DNA from: Actinomycetota bacterium
GTDB lineage: Bacteria > Actinomycetota > Acidimicrobiia > Acidimicrobiales > MedAcidi-G1
Assembly (NCBI GenBank): GCA_014381945.1
Contig: JACNKQ010000029.1
Span: forward strand, 1 to 55,658
Direction: 5' to 3'
DNA: 55,658 bases
In this document: positions 15,975 through 23,137 of the stretch, in pieces
How the letters are laid out: every line of letters begins with the position of its first letter
How positions within the stretch are numbered: the stretch's first letter is position 1
Notes under the pieces: generated by a model
The model's database searches: none
The model's input: the letters and a program-made list of their open reading frames with translations, nothing else
Told to the model about the DNA's origin: nothing
Position numbers and translations under genes: made by a program

Positions 15975-16469
15975 TCAGGTGATTGCAGCGACGGTGTCGT
16001 GGTCCGGGGCGGTTCCGTTCGCATCATGAGGGTCGGGGGCCGTCTCGAGGAACCATTCCGTCAGGTCCGGGTACAGCTCGGCGACCTCGTCCACGCGGTG
16101 GCTGCGGGGGCACCTGACCCTCATCTTCATGCCGCACCCGGGGCATGACCACTCGTCGCCGGTGGTCCGTTCACGCCACAGCGGTGATCCGCAGGTGCGG
16201 CACCGGTCCTGCCACACGTTGCAGTCGATCGAAGCCAGCCGTTTCGAGCTGAGCGGGCAGCCGGTGCCGTAGCAGACCGGCCAGTCGGGGTCGGGAAGGA
16301 TCGCCCAGACGGGGCACTTGCCGACGCAGTCACCACAGTCGTCGCAGGTGAGGGGGTTGATTATGAACAGTCCGAGGAAGGTGTCGGTCTTCCTGAGGGC
16401 GTCCCTCGGGCAGGCGAACTCGCAGGCTCCGCAGCCGATGCACTCCTCTTCCAGGACCAGATGGCTCAC
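15975..16469 (-). CDS. 2[4Fe-4S] ferredoxin with C-terminal zinc ribbon
   Basis: The 164-residue product has two classic cluster motifs: Cys10, 13, 16 with Cys20 (then Pro) and Cys42, 45, 48 with Cys52 (then Pro). Further cysteines at 66, 71 and 83 and a zinc-ribbon-like set (Cys90/93 and Cys109/112, plus Cys120) follow, so the protein is about twice the size of a simple bacterial ferredoxin. It is the last gene of a four-gene set with the diiron protein and is the natural electron donor for it (inference from context). The spacing to the small zinc-knuckle gene is 24 bases. Confidence 0.88.
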   Translation of the reverse strand: MSHLVLEEECIGCGACEFACPRDALRKTDTFLGLFIINPLTCDDCGDCVGKCPVWAILPDPDWPVCYGTGCPLSSKRLASIDCNVWQDRCRTCGSPLWRERTTGDEWSCPGCGMKMRVRCPRSHRVDEVAELYPDLTEWFLETAPDPHDANGTAPDHDTVAAIT

Positions 16470-16493
16470 AAGATGCGCCTCACGAAACGCGCC

Positions 16494-16709
16494 TCACGAT
16501 CCGGTCAGCGAGCCTGCCGTGACGTCCTGGGGGTGGAAGGGTCGGAGCGAACCCAGACAGCCGTTGCAGGTCCAGGGAGCGACGTTGACGGTGTCGGCCG
16601 TGGTCTTTAGGGCGTAGCGCTCACCGTCCCACTCCCAGTAGCCGTAGGGGAGGTCGAGCACTCGGTCGAGTGGCTCACCACAGTGGGGACAGGGCATGGC
16701 TTCCATCAT
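16494..16709 (-). CDS. 71-residue zinc-knuckle protein
   Basis: The product has two CxxC pairs (Cys7/Cys10 and Cys48/Cys51) separated by an aromatic-rich stretch (PYGYWEWDGERYAL), consistent with one structural zinc site. AAAGGA lies just before the tandem ATGs at 16709 and 16706; I use the first. It lies between the SCP2-like gene and the ferredoxin gene, with short gaps on both sides. The family is not recognised; a metal-insertion or docking role for the diiron protein is only a guess. Confidence 0.65.
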   Translation of the reverse strand: MMEAMPCPHCGEPLDRVLDLPYGYWEWDGERYALKTTADTVNVAPWTCNGCLGSLRPFHPQDVTAGSLTGS

Positions 16710-16756
16710 CGGTCCTTTCGGTCGGTGGTCCCGGTAGGTCGTCTCGGTTGCTTGCC

Positions 16757-17215
16757 TCAGGCTGCGGCCGGAGCCAACTGGGCGGCGCCGTCGAGGAACT
16801 GCTGGATGGTCTGGTTGAAGCGGAAGAAGCGGTCGACGCCCATCGGGTCGTCGCCCCGTGCCCGGATGCGGTCGCCGACGAGGGTGAGGCTGTTGACCGT
16901 GCATCTTCCGGTGGCCCGACCGTTGGCGACTATGTCGTCGAACATCTCCGACCATGCGCCGATGTCACCTGCGAGCCAGCAGTCGCAGTCGGCCTCCTCG
17001 CCGTCACCGAGGAGCGCTACCCCGGTACAGCCCAGGTCCTCGAAACGGAGTCGGATCCGGAGGTCGTCACCTCCTGTGCCGGTCAGGACCACCCCGAGTG
17101 TGAGGTCCACCTCGCCGAGGCCCTCGTATGTCTCTGGGTGTGCGTTCATGAGGTCGGCCAGGTCCTGGTAGAAGGCCAGGTCGTCTACGTTGCACATGGT
17201 CGCGCTGTTCGCCAT
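16757..17215 (-). CDS. SCP2-like sterol-carrier-fold protein
   Basis: The 152-residue product resembles the SCP-2 lipid-binding fold: the central DLRIRLRFEDLGCTGVALL and the CDCWLAGDIGAWSEMF stretch, with a hydrophobic amphipathic C-terminus. SCP2-like domains bind fatty acyl or sterol chains. It is 16 bases downstream of the diiron protein gene, so it may present a lipid substrate to that enzyme (inference). SCP2 assignment is by pattern, not by a search. Confidence 0.6.
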   Translation of the reverse strand: MANSATMCNVDDLAFYQDLADLMNAHPETYEGLGEVDLTLGVVLTGTGGDDLRIRLRFEDLGCTGVALLGDGEEADCDCWLAGDIGAWSEMFDDIVANGRATGRCTVNSLTLVGDRIRARGDDPMGVDRFFRFNQTIQQFLDGAAQLAPAAA

Positions 17216-17231
17216 TGTCGGTTCCTCCCGG

Positions 17232-18332
17232 TCAGACGCCGCTCTTGTCGAACTGGTTCAGGTCGATGCCGAGGGCCTCCAGCGGCAACTGGGTCCTGTC
17301 GATCCTGTTCAGCCCTGCCCTCTCGCACCGGGCCAGGTACGAGGTGAAGATCTTGGTGGCCAGCATCGACTGCATTGGGAAGCCCCTGTCCTCGACGTGT
17401 TCGGTGCCGCCGGCCAGGAGTACGGCCAAGGCCGAGGAGAGGTCGGGTTGGGTGCCGAACTCCAGGAATACCTTCTCACCGTGGTCGAGGGCCTCGTGGA
17501 TCTCATCGGCCACGTCGGGATCGCCGGCGATGGCCTGGCGGATGTGCATCGTGCCGTAGGCGACGTGGCGGGCCTCGTCCTGCATCGAGAGCCTGAAGAT
17601 CTTCTTCTCGACATGTGTCGGGGCGATCAGCTCGCCCTGGCGGAACACGTCCAGGATGAAGCCCTCGCCCAGGAGGTGAAGCAGGGCGGAAGCCTGGGTG
17701 TAGGTCTTGGCCTCGAGGATGCTGCGCAGCAGGCTCTCGGAGCCGGCACGGGACATCAGCAGGCCGCCGCCGTTGGCGAGTGCCCGCTTCCGGAACACGT
17801 CGCTGTGGCGGGCCTCGTCCATGATCTGGGTTGCCAGGAACATCTTTGCCTCGAGGAAGTGGTGGTTCATGCGCCACATCCACTTGGCCGGCAGGTCGGT
17901 GGCGATCATCTCGATCTCGGTGAGCACCGTGCAGAGCTGACACATGGCGTGTTCGATGTCGGCGGGGAGTTCCTGCAGTTCGTTCCATGGGATGTCCCTT
18001 GTGGCGGACCACTGCCTGGCGACCGCCTCCTCGTAGAGCTCGACCACGTTGTCGGCCCAGACCTGGGACTTGTGGTTGAGGATGTAGCCCATGTCGGGGG
18101 TGTCCTCGTCGATATCGGCTCCGCGGGGCGCCATCGAGCGGAACGGTGGATCGTCGAGCACCTCGCCGTAGGCGCCGATGGCGATGTCCATCATGGTCAG
18201 GCCCCGGGGGCCCGGTACGGGCCGCATGCCCCACTCGGACTTCGCTCCCCGCAACCATGCCCAGTCGAGGGGTTGTCCCATCGGGGTCATCTCCGGGAGG
18301 TTCCGGGTGGTCTCGTCAGTGGCAAGTGCCAT
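17232..18332 (-). CDS. ferritin-like diiron-carboxylate protein, R2-like
   Basis: The 366-residue all-helical protein has two EARH motifs (residues 173-176 and 253-256), which supply Glu and His ligands. Two further carboxylates fit the pattern: Glu139 or Glu141 in TEIEMIA and Glu223 in LLGEGF. The VARQWSATRDIPW segment at 104-116 is typical of R2-like ligand-binding or oxygenase relatives rather than of ribonucleotide reductase, whose radical Tyr surroundings I do not see. Such proteins activate O2 for oxidation or desaturation. GAGGAG precedes ATG 18332. It heads the operon with the SCP2-like, zinc-knuckle and ferredoxin genes, and a flavin reductase is divergent. The substrate is unknown; a bound acyl chain is a reasonable guess. 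Confidence 0.8.
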   Translation of the reverse strand: MALATDETTRNLPEMTPMGQPLDWAWLRGAKSEWGMRPVPGPRGLTMMDIAIGAYGEVLDDPPFRSMAPRGADIDEDTPDMGYILNHKSQVWADNVVELYEEAVARQWSATRDIPWNELQELPADIEHAMCQLCTVLTEIEMIATDLPAKWMWRMNHHFLEAKMFLATQIMDEARHSDVFRKRALANGGGLLMSRAGSESLLRSILEAKTYTQASALLHLLGEGFILDVFRQGELIAPTHVEKKIFRLSMQDEARHVAYGTMHIRQAIAGDPDVADEIHEALDHGEKVFLEFGTQPDLSSALAVLLAGGTEHVEDRGFPMQSMLATKIFTSYLARCERAGLNRIDRTQLPLEALGIDLNQFDKSGV

Positions 18333-18366: not shown

Positions 18367-18382
18367 GATAACGGTCGTTATC
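18367..18382. promoter_or_regulatory. palindrome in the diiron operon / flavin reductase intergenic region
   Basis: GATAACG and CGTTATC are perfect seven-base arms around GT, beginning 35 bp upstream of the diiron gene start. The size and symmetry fit a TetR/GntR-type operator over the diiron operon promoter. Confidence 0.55.
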
Positions 18383-20325: not shown

Positions 20326-22077
20326 ATGGCCGAGCAGTACTTCCTGGGGACCGAGACCTCCGAGCGCTTTCCGCTCTGGACGCGGGCCAACGTCGGTGAG
20401 GTGTTCCCCGACCCGGTAGCCATGAGTTCGTTCGACTTCGCCTTCCTCAACGCCGACGGGATCCGCATGGCCGAACTGGGCTGGCGGGATGCATACGTGC
20501 GCCTCGGGGCGTTCTCCGAGGACGAGTTCGATCCGGACCGCCCGGTGATCCTTGGCGTATTCGGCGGCTACGCCTACCTGAACGCGTCGATCATGCGAGT
20601 CTTCGGCGAACGGGCACCCGGCCTGTCAGCCGCTGACATCGATGCCCAGTTTTTCGGGGTCCAGCCCGGCATACCCGACTACGAGCCACATCCTGACGAC
20701 GCCAGCCCTGAGGCCGAGGCCCGGATAGGCGCCACCTTCGGTTGGGCGCTGACCACCGACGGCCTTCCCGATGTGCTCGCCGACGAGGAGAAAGTCGATG
20801 CGTTGCGTGCCAGCCGGCCGGAGTTTGGCGCCATGGCCGACGGAGAGCTGCTGGGGTGGGCCGAAAGGGTCCTCGACGAAAGCTTCCGCCACCTGTTCAG
20901 CCAGCACCTGTTCGTCACCCTGTTGGCCACCCTGCCGGCGGGAATCATCACCGAGGTCAGCACGGCGCTCGGCCGCCCCCAGGATGCGCTCAAGCTGCTC
21001 GCCGGCCTGGGAGATGTCGAATCGGCGGCACCGTCGATGGCCATGTGGGAACTCGGACGGAAGGCTGCGGCCAGCGCAACCCTGACCCGGGAATTCGAAG
21101 CCGGGCTCGACAACCTCAACGGGCGCCTACGGGCGCTCGTCGGCGACGATGTTGCTGCCTTCAACACGGCCTTCGACGAGTTTCTATACGCCTATGGCTG
21201 CCGCGGGCCAAACGAGTGGGAGACCCGTTGTCCCACATGGGAGACCGAGCCGGACCTCGCACTTGCTGCGATCGACCGGATGCGTCTCTCGCCGGAGAGC
21301 GCAGCCCCAACCGGCAACCAGTCCCGGATGGCTACCGAACGGGAGCGCATCGGCGCCGAGATGTTCGAGATGCTGGCTGCTGATCCCGAGGCTCAGGGTC
21401 AGTTCGGCGCAGCGCTGGGTTCAGCCGGGGTGTTCATGCCCGGACGGGAACGCACCAAGACCAACTGCATCAAGTTGATCCACGAGGTCCGCATGGCCTA
21501 CCTGGAGTTCGGTAGGCGCATGGTCGAACGGGGCGTGTTCCCCGAGAAGACCAGCTACGGCATGGTCACGTTCGCCGAGGGTCATCGGTTGCTGGCTGAC
21601 CCCACCGGCTGGCGTGAGGTGATCGAAGAACGGAAGGCCGTGTTCGACGAGGCGAGCCAACTGCAGGAGCCGTTCGTCGTGTTCGGCGAGGCACCGCCCC
21701 TGTCCGCCTGGCCTCGACGCGACGCGGTCGAGTTCGAACTGCTGGGCGTCGGCGAGTCGATCCAGGGGATGCCCGGATGCCCGGGCGTGGCGCAGGGCCG
21801 GGCCCGGGTGGTGCTCGACAGCCACGACCCTACGGACTTCGACCCGGGCGACGTCCTCGTGGCGCCGCTGACCGACCCGTCGTGGACGCCGCTGTTCGTG
21901 CCGGCATCCGGGATCGTCGTCGACGTGGGTGCCCCGCTCAGCCACGCCATCATCGTCAGCCGTGAGTTGGGGGTCCCGTGTGTGGTGTCGGCCACCGACG
22001 CAACCAGGCGGATACCCGACGGGGCGCTGGTCGAGGTGAACGGTGAGACAGGGCAGGTCACGATCCTCGAGGTGTAG
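20326..22077 (+). CDS. PEP-utilising mobile-domain protein
   Basis: The 583-residue product ends in a phosphohistidine swivelling domain: GCPGVAQGRARVVLD opens it and GAPLSHAIIVSRELGVPCV carries the catalytic His. The preceding 450 residues have no PEP synthase ATP-grasp signature or PEP/pyruvate TIM barrel; they look helical and match the middle region of larger rifampin-phosphotransferase-like proteins. It probably needs a partner supplying the nucleotide-binding domain, or has a different chemistry. GGGGGA lies eight bases before ATG 20326. The partner is not in the window. Confidence 0.75.
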   Translation: MAEQYFLGTETSERFPLWTRANVGEVFPDPVAMSSFDFAFLNADGIRMAELGWRDAYVRLGAFSEDEFDPDRPVILGVFGGYAYLNASIMRVFGERAPGLSAADIDAQFFGVQPGIPDYEPHPDDASPEAEARIGATFGWALTTDGLPDVLADEEKVDALRASRPEFGAMADGELLGWAERVLDESFRHLFSQHLFVTLLATLPAGIITEVSTALGRPQDALKLLAGLGDVESAAPSMAMWELGRKAAASATLTREFEAGLDNLNGRLRALVGDDVAAFNTAFDEFLYAYGCRGPNEWETRCPTWETEPDLALAAIDRMRLSPESAAPTGNQSRMATERERIGAEMFEMLAADPEAQGQFGAALGSAGVFMPGRERTKTNCIKLIHEVRMAYLEFGRRMVERGVFPEKTSYGMVTFAEGHRLLADPTGWREVIEERKAVFDEASQLQEPFVVFGEAPPLSAWPRRDAVEFELLGVGESIQGMPGCPGVAQGRARVVLDSHDPTDFDPGDVLVAPLTDPSWTPLFVPASGIVVDVGAPLSHAIIVSRELGVPCVVSATDATRRIPDGALVEVNGETGQVTILEV

Positions 22078-22267: not shown

Positions 22268-23137
22268 TCAGGTGACCCGTCGCTGGGCCGCGTCGAGGGC
22301 ATCCCGGTTCCCGAACCCTGAAGTCCCGGCGCCTCCCCGCAGCACCGCCAGCGGGTCCTGGAGGTCGCCGACGTAGCCGAGGGCGTAGGCGCCCCTGCTC
22401 CAGCCCAGCAGGCGCAGCAGGTCGTCGTCGAGCCCGCAGGCGATCTCGGGAGGAACGGCCAGGTACTGGTTCTCCTCCTGACGCAGCCACGACAGGTTGT
22501 ACGTGAGGTTCACTCCGGAGCGGACCTTGGCGCTGCGGTTCGCACCACCTCCGTGGTAGACGCTCCCGGTGTAGAAGAGCACCGAGCCGCGGATCATCTC
22601 AGCTGCGACGGTGTCGTCCTGGGTGAACTGCAGGCGGTCCTCTGCGTGGTTGCTACCCGGGACCACCCGGGTGGCGCCGTTTTCCTCGGTGAAGTCGGTC
22701 AGCGCCCAGATGGTGTTGAGCTGTACCTCGTATCCGGCGGGGAAGGGGAAGAAGTCGAACGCCCACTGGTCGCGGTGGATCGGTTGCACCGGTTGGCCGG
22801 GACCGATCGAGATCACCTGTGTGAGGTGGACCTGGTAGCCGGCGGCGTGGGCGAGATGCCGGTCGCATGTTCCGAGCACCAGGGGGTGCATGAGCATCTC
22901 GCGTGCTGCGGTCGAGCGGGTGACGAGGGCCCCTGTGCGTCGGGTGGAGTGTCCTGTGAAGTCATCGGGTCCGGGTGCAGTGGTCTCGACGAAGGGGACG
23001 ATCTCGGACTCGAAGCGGTCCAACAGGGCCGGGTCGGCAAGGCCGTCGACGATCACGGCTCCGTGCTCCAACAGGGCACTCGCGACTGCGTCCGGCCCGT
23101 CGGTCGGCGAGAGGTGTGTGAGGGGGGCGGGGTTCAT
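22268..23137 (-). CDS. phytanoyl-CoA dioxygenase family protein
   Basis: The 289-residue product has the double-stranded beta-helix iron site of Fe(II)/2-oxoglutarate oxygenases: His121 and Asp123 (IHRDQW) and a distal His195 (VYHGGGANRS), with Arg201 or Arg206 for 2-oxoglutarate. PhyH relatives hydroxylate many substrates, from branched acyl-CoA to small molecules and natural products, so the substrate cannot be named. It is followed 28 bases upstream by a methyltransferase gene on the same strand, and the pair may act together. Confidence 0.85.
   Translation of the reverse strand: MNPAPLTHLSPTDGPDAVASALLEHGAVIVDGLADPALLDRFESEIVPFVETTAPGPDDFTGHSTRRTGALVTRSTAAREMLMHPLVLGTCDRHLAHAAGYQVHLTQVISIGPGQPVQPIHRDQWAFDFFPFPAGYEVQLNTIWALTDFTEENGATRVVPGSNHAEDRLQFTQDDTVAAEMIRGSVLFYTGSVYHGGGANRSAKVRSGVNLTYNLSWLRQEENQYLAVPPEIACGLDDDLLRLLGWSRGAYALGYVGDLQDPLAVLRGGAGTSGFGNRDALDAAQRRVT

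Follow-up and report, generated by a model that had tools for sequence, protein, structure and literature searches.

What is the function of a diiron protein whose gene is followed, in one short cassette, by the genes of an SCP2-fold protein, a small zinc protein and a ferredoxin? The question is raised by a stretch of 55,658 nucleotides from an Actinomycetota bacterium (Acidimicrobiia, MedAcidi-G1; assembly GCA_014381945.1, contig JACNKQ010000029.1), referred to here as the window, which corresponds to contig C53 of a 2.49 Mb genome that is 97.5% complete. The cassette spans positions 15975-18332 of the minus strand, as first read in an earlier note made from the sequence, and the four close, co-directional genes described in that note are present there. 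The first gene (17232..18332) encodes an R2-like diiron protein of 366 aa, presumed to be an oxygenase. It is followed by the genes of an SCP2-fold protein (16757..17215; 152 aa), which within the class strictly accompanies the diiron protein, a small zinc-ribbon-like protein of ~70 aa (16494..16706, or with a start at 16709) and a 2[4Fe-4S] ferredoxin with a cysteine-rich C-terminal tail (15975..16469; 164 aa). The intergenic gaps are 16, ~50 and 24 bases, and clear purine-rich stretches resembling ribosome-binding sites precede the first three genes. The four genes seem to encode a previously undescribed bacterial iron enzyme together with its own electron supplier and a partner with the shape of a lipid carrier. 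A search of the open-access PMC literature returned no description of an SCP2, diiron and ferredoxin oxygenase set, and the word undescribed holds within the scope of that search. On balance, the set probably makes up a dedicated multicomponent diiron oxygenase, to which a hydrophobic substrate would be presented by the SCP2-fold partner.

Co-inheritance of the gene set

The evidence that these genes belong together comes from their distribution. A diiron match at E 5.5e-73 or better was detected in 24 of 296 genomes of the class, with the next best genome at 1.3e-43, and an SCP2-like profile (E 1e-5) was detected in 24 of 296 genomes selected under the same rule. A comparison by eye showed both sets to consist of the identical 24 genomes. 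The SCP2-like profile had been built from cassette loci, which makes the presences in part a given, so that the weight lies with the 272 absences; the scoring took in no more than 13 candidates from each genome. Co-occurrence in other genomes, whose absence had been named in the earlier note as refuting, is thus observed for the diiron/SCP2 pair. Across the phylum, a survey of 396 genomes gave 11 with a match to the diiron profile at E 1e-25, four of them with more than 500 bits and seven with 196-297 bits; the SCP2-like gene was present in four of the 396, the same four that gave the strong diiron matches, and all four also belong to the class set. When the threshold was E 1e-3, the diiron query matched 125 of the 296 class genomes, cassette holders included. 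The patchy occurrence of the pair (24/296) suggests that its function is specialised and not a core one.

The arrangement is conserved far outside the genus and is therefore beyond chance. The loci named in this text are the best 80 of 560 confirmed relatives and not a census, and in 51 of these 80 the distance from the diiron gene to an SCP2-like gene is at most 5 kb. Thirteen loci (L071-L083) make up clade A, where the SCP2-like, zinc protein and ferredoxin genes are present in 12 of the 12 testable members; the contig of L080 ends 91 bases after the diiron gene. Clade B (L084-L095, 12 loci) has the SCP2-like and ferredoxin genes in 12/12 and the zinc protein in 0/12. The 13 loci of group C (L097-L103 and L106-L111), which carry titles such as Mycobacterium, Gammaproteobacteria and Deltaproteobacteria, among others, and do not form one clade in the tree, have the SCP2-like gene in 13/13 and a ferredoxin in 10/13, nine of these ferredoxins being short and without the tail. 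The SCP2-like genes counted in clades A and B and in group C stand beside the diiron gene. At L149, the SCP2-like gene and the ferredoxin gene are ~5 kb away. No partner was found for the single diiron genes of the last 15 of the 80 loci, and the contig is cut close to the diiron gene at least in L080, L096, L127 and L136. Relatives of the set are spread over several bacterial groups that are distant from each other and mostly uncultured, and the carriers of the cassette are known mostly from environmental genomes.

The sequences of the partners have also diverged in parallel. The distance-matrix correlation between the diiron and SCP2-like proteins reached r 0.71 (52 rows, 51 loci plus the window), and the correlations with the ferredoxin were 0.87 for the diiron protein and 0.81 for the SCP2-like protein (36 rows, 35 loci plus the window); none of 2000 permutations was as high as the observed values, to which shared organism history contributes. 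The compact set of diiron, SCP2-fold and ferredoxin genes that had been proposed is in this way found to be co-inherited.

Two other observations concern the loci themselves. The record of L071, titled Proteobacteria, holds an Acidimicrobiia-type four-gene cassette with a diiron protein 87% identical to that of the window, and is probably mislabelled or a mixed bin. A distant form of the cassette (L057:9412-16006 and L060:3923-10508) contains two Amidohydro_2 genes and one Hydantoinase_B gene between the diiron and SCP2-like genes; the families were searched for L057, and in L060 the ferredoxin comes first in the order. Among mobile elements, a plasmid collection gave no match to the diiron or SCP2-like protein, viral contigs gave no confirmed match and PHROGs returned nothing informative.

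Folds and metal ligands of the encoded proteins

The diiron protein lies below every Pfam and NCBIfam cut-off. Its score against PF00268, the family of ribonucleotide reductase R2, is 15.5 bits (cut-off 33.6), and that against the R2lox model of NCBIfam is 36.5 bits (cut-off 194). When a profile of 25 relatives was compared with the PDB, the best match was a VlmB homologue (6d9f, E 1.3e-7), followed by R2lox. The predicted structure (mean pLDDT 93.1) was aligned with VIA-align to R2lox 7qbp (Z 23.5, root mean square deviation (rmsd) 2.8, 244 aligned), the VlmB homologue 6d9f (Z 23.3), VlmB 8wvr (Z 23.2), ADO 4rc7 (Z 22.5, rmsd 2.1, 210 aligned) and ribonucleotide reductase R2 6y2n (Z 21.5), where rows within Z 1 of each other count as tied. 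The PDB title of 6d9f mentions aldehyde deformylating activity.

The six metal ligands E141, E173, H176, E223, E253 and H256, judged by alignment and not by model geometry, form a complete set in 81 of the 110 sequences aligned. These 81 are the window and one copy from each of the named loci (80/80); second copies (26) and fragments (three) account for the remaining 29. A diiron protein lacking the full ligand set had been named as the second refuting outcome, and the alignment gives the full set. A true R2 gene is present elsewhere in the same genome (268.7 bits). The radical tyrosine of R2 lies four residues after the first ligand histidine, and class Ic has phenylalanine at this place; the corresponding position 180 is phenylalanine in the window (F180) and in 80 of the 81 sequences overall, and tyrosine in one. 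The proposal of an R2-like protein that is not ribonucleotide reductase therefore stands: the fold is R2-like, PF00268 is not reached, the usual radical tyrosine is missing and the true R2 is encoded elsewhere. Membership in R2lox was rejected as well. The ligand order E, ExxH, E, ExxH is present, but the score stays under the NCBIfam cut-off and the crosslink residues are absent: positions 144 and 218, which we take to correspond to the Val-Tyr ether crosslink pair of R2lox (the tyrosine of 7qbp aligns near position 218), are alanine and L/M/V/I, respectively, in 81/81 catalytic copies. Methane/toluene-type multicomponent monooxygenases have separate alpha and beta hydroxylase subunits, a [2Fe-2S] reductase and an effector. 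This type was discarded too, given that the cassette contains a single diiron gene and a ferredoxin of the 2[4Fe-4S] type and that the diiron protein matched no such Pfam family up to E 1.

A second diiron-like gene is found in tandem in 27 of the 80 loci, 13 of which also have the SCP2-like gene. The titles of these loci are mostly Chloroflexi, Dehalococcoidia or Deltaproteobacteria, with one Binataceae; the cultured Tepidiforma flava (L144) carries this tandem form. The ligands are lost in 26 of 26 full-length second copies (L113-L148; for example, L123:7923-10143 and L147:5179-7449). In a tree of 105 rows the second copies were split, 17 of them placed beside the catalytic copies of Chloroflexota and nine beside those of Myxococcota/Binatota. 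A tree constraining the second copies to one clade was rejected (p 1.8e-5, a value to be read with the long branches in mind and with the fact that the group was named after the tree was seen). This sequence pattern suggests that the pairing of a catalytic copy with a pseudo-enzyme arose twice separately, and the lineages that carry a ligand-less second copy may serve as separate natural experiments on the origin of pseudo-enzyme subunits.

The assignment of the second gene as SCP2-like rests on the modelled fold. The Pfam SCP2 model (PF02036) gave no match for the window member and matched 2 of 26 members, with a best E of 0.039; three other genes of the same genome, ordinary SCP2 genes, pass it. 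Comparison of the SCP2-like profile with Thermus SCP2 (1wfr and 2cx7) gave E 0.056 and 0.11. The predicted structure (pLDDT 92.0) aligned best to 2cx7 (Z 13.6, rmsd 2.3, 124 aligned) and 1wfr (Z 13.1), with the remaining rows at Z 10.1 and below and UbiJ at a middling Z of 8.1, and Foldseek placed 1wfr first (E 4.6e-5). What the earlier note called an SCP2-like protein is thus correct in fold, and the Pfam family is not reached. Residues G34, R132 and Q138 are invariant in 53 relatives, and D123, D128 and N108 are nearly so.

The zinc protein combines a CPxC motif with a CxxC or HxxC pair, a pattern that appears to fit zinc better than rubredoxin iron. The ferredoxin had been recognised from its sequence, and its two CxxCxxCxxxC motifs are present; the description has to be corrected by adding a C-terminal cysteine-rich tail. 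In the ferredoxin at 15975-16469 and its relatives, this tail holds eight conserved cysteines beyond both [4Fe-4S] motifs, invariant in 20 aligned members (20 of 22; the truncated L053 and the short L059, which has no tail, were omitted).

Proposed function of the cassette and alternative explanations

The proposed mechanism would work as follows. The diiron protein would bind two Fe, or Mn/Fe as in R2lox, through its six ligands and activate O2, and the neighbouring 2[4Fe-4S] ferredoxin would supply the electrons. The SCP2-fold protein, in physical contact with the diiron protein, would bind a lipid-like or other hydrophobic substrate or present it to the diiron site, as UbiJ does for the ubiquinone hydroxylases. 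The small zinc protein, limited to the closest clade, would probably be an assembly or docking factor. That the set acts as an oxygenase is likely; that it acts on a carried lipid is plausible, as suggested by the SCP2 fold and by published relatives. Among the latter, ADO acts on fatty aldehydes. Passages of one article report an R2lox with alkane-degrading activity in crude lysates and no ADO activity for R2lox proteins (PMC10867098), a passage of another describes the diiron oxygenase BioE as acting on acyl-ACP/acyl-CoA (PMC12915131), and the SCP2 proteins UbiJ and UbiT are described, in part of a third, as serving the hydroxylases of ubiquinone synthesis (PMC6747719). The fact that the fold relatives R2lox, ADO and BioE act on aliphatic chains supports a hydrophobic substrate. 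A bolder version, which we put forward tentatively and would not expect to hold in full, is that the cassette stands for a class of diiron oxygenases of its own, with a dedicated SCP2-fold carrier that would hold and hand over the substrate and with a ferredoxin private to the system; in two other lineages, the enzyme family would have turned into a heterodimer with its ligand-less sister.

Several results weigh against a lipid-carrying oxygenase. Many relatives in Chloroflexota have no detectable SCP2-like gene and ferredoxin, which implies that the partners are dispensable for some members of the wider family. The invariant polar residues of the SCP2-like protein could, to judge from the sequences, line a pocket but equally well form a docking face. 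In addition, no tested acyl-CoA or lipid gene family was enriched around the cassette. This comparison was made by phmmer with seven seeds on 26 cassette loci, shorter and longer ones mixed and processed with a simple gene finder, and on 40 other stretches from eight class genomes that hold the cassette; L057, the source of the Amidohydro_2 seed, is itself among the loci counted, and the seeds for ACAD and P450 may likewise stem from such loci. The numbers of loci with a match, cassette versus background, were 3 and 7 for FadD, 2 and 1 for ECH, 2 and 11 for SDR, 5 and 6 for ACAD, 1 and 1 for P450, 2 and 1 for Amidohydro_2, and 5 and 1 for LLM (p 0.03, uncorrected for seven tests). Nothing firm about the substrate can be read from this gene company.

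Some of these results give weight to a different role of the SCP2-fold protein, namely that of a small effector or coupling subunit that would gate O2 or electrons, the substrate being a free small molecule. We consider this explanation possible, with perhaps one chance in a few. The regulatory proteins of the bacterial multicomponent monooxygenases offer a model for it, and it would account for the strict co-occurrence of the diiron and SCP2-like genes, for the invariant polar residues in a protein of weak similarity to ordinary SCP2 sequences and for the lack of enriched lipid genes nearby. The distant form with two Amidohydro_2 genes and one Hydantoinase_B gene (L057 and L060), which looks like small-molecule catabolism, also speaks in its favour.

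It is improbable that the diiron protein is an N-oxygenase or an azoxy/hydrazine oxidase of the AurF or VlmB kind, an idea that draws on the first place of 6d9f in the PDB profile search and its high structural score (E 1.3e-7, Z 23.3) and on the weak matches of 13 of the 25 profile members to AurF (best E 1.1e-4). VlmB is an example of nitrogen chemistry performed by the same fold, as stated in a passage of PMC11705231. According to part of a further article, the N-oxygenases of the FDO group are marked by a seventh histidine four residues before the fifth ligand glutamate (PMC12154687), but the equivalent position 249 is C/A/V/S/T in 81/81 sequences, and an N-oxygenase of the AurF/CmlI type was rejected on this basis. 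In the alignment, VlmB apparently also has no seventh histidine, so its absence counts against AurF-like rather than VlmB-like chemistry. Slightly less probable still is a system that oxygenates no substrate and works as an oxidase or in protection, as in iron or O2 scavenging or redox sensing. It would agree with the missing substrate gene context, and a ferredoxin and a zinc protein might fit into it, but it leaves the strict SCP2-fold partner unexplained, and among the nearest folds are oxygenases and oxidases that act on organic substrates.

Surroundings of the cassette and comparison with known systems

Downstream of the cassette lie cox2 and cox1, and upstream a divergent flavin reductase (PF01613, E 1.3e-31) followed by a fatty acid desaturase (PF00487, E 1.1e-27). 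The earlier note had regarded the last two as flanking the set; they are real neighbours, but their membership of the set is for the most part not supported. In a tblastn search (E 1e-5) of loci L034-L150, the flavin reductase was found only in L034 and L072, which are close relatives, and the desaturase in these two and, at 34% identity, in L081. Because it is chiefly in this pair of relatives that both genes recur, they probably do not belong to the set. In L081, a more distant cassette, the desaturase gene (L081:4097-5074) stands directly behind the ferredoxin, 114 bases away on the same strand. This speaks for a desaturase link, yet among 34 cassette loci it is the single independent case; a desaturase was also found in one of the 40 background stretches, and the genome of the window has three PF00487 genes. 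The cytochrome oxidase genes, found only in L072, were likewise rejected as members. Further along the window, the gene at 20326-22077 encodes a PEP-utilising mobile domain with its best matches to the C-terminal parts of PEP synthase-like models, and the product of 22268-23137 has, by eye, the look of a phytanoyl-CoA dioxygenase.

A palindrome with the appearance of an operator, GATAACG-2-CGTTATC, is located before the diiron gene at 18367..18382. The earlier note had pointed it out, and it proves to be a perfect 7+2+7 repeat that recurs in other genomes. Upstream of the diiron gene, paired half-sites occur at ~-38 to -50 in the window, in L072, in L047, which by its length is the same contig as L094, and in L051, and also in L034, where one base is changed; this makes five genomes including that of the window; 135 upstream stretches were examined, among them duplicates, second copies and three stretches shorter than 6 bases. 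With at most one mismatch, the pattern has three occurrences in the window's genome and its reversed control none. In the same genome, the motif with one mismatch is found 10 bases before a TetR gene (contig C27), and TetR relatives are present in four of seven chosen genomes, which are the four with the motif (100, 79, 39 and 39% identity), and in none of the three without it. However, the stretches around the TetR gene of the other three motif genomes contained no motif at up to two mismatches, and in the L071 genome, which lacks the site, the reversed control was commoner than the pattern (six matches versus two), so that the connection between TetR and the palindrome is only a lead. The region around this TetR gene (L069, own genome C27: 14000-32000) also holds two R2-like diiron genes of another subfamily, together with CoA ligase, enoyl-CoA hydratase and SDR-like genes. 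The third site lies before an integrase-like gene that adjoins a YqgE-like gene and recurs in the L072 genome (L162:7609; L174:1501, with one mismatch; YqgE and the L174 genes were assigned by eye). A scan for promoters and terminators gave one site each, not clearly above shuffled sequences.

Diiron oxygenases with the R2lox/VlmB/ADO fold are hard to assign because of their variable gene surroundings, and a strictly co-inherited SCP2-fold partner together with a private ferredoxin makes one branch of them testable. R2lox shares with the cassette protein the best fold match (7qbp) and the ligand order E/ExxH/E/ExxH, whereas the cassette protein is without the crosslink pair and far below the NCBIfam cut-off; we know of no SCP2/ferredoxin cassette around R2lox. 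VlmB and its homologue "protein 60" (8wvr and 6d9f) provide the best PDB profile match and tie with R2lox in Z, but have 19% identity in the structural alignment and other gene company. ADO comes close in fold (Z 22.5) and has an aliphatic substrate, although it is shorter, with ~220 residues in the chain, and no SCP2 partner of it is known to us. BioE, likened here by its published description, has the E, ExxH, E, ExxH ligands and, in a passage of PMC12915131, a carrier-bound acyl substrate, with acyl carrier protein (ACP) or CoA in place of an SCP2-fold protein. The SCP2 proteins of Thermus thermophilus (1wfr and 2cx7) agree with the cassette protein in fold and differ in sequence (13-16% identity). 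Finally, UbiJ and UbiT are, as described in part of PMC6747719, SCP2-domain accessory proteins that serve hydroxylases (UbiJ, Z 8.1), but the genes are others, and hydroxylation there is the work of flavin enzymes, of Coq7 in some bacteria, or of UbiU-UbiV. Should the SCP2-like protein be the carrier of the substrate, the cassette would provide a case, distinct from ubiquinone synthesis, in which a hydrophobic molecule is hydroxylated while presented by a protein.

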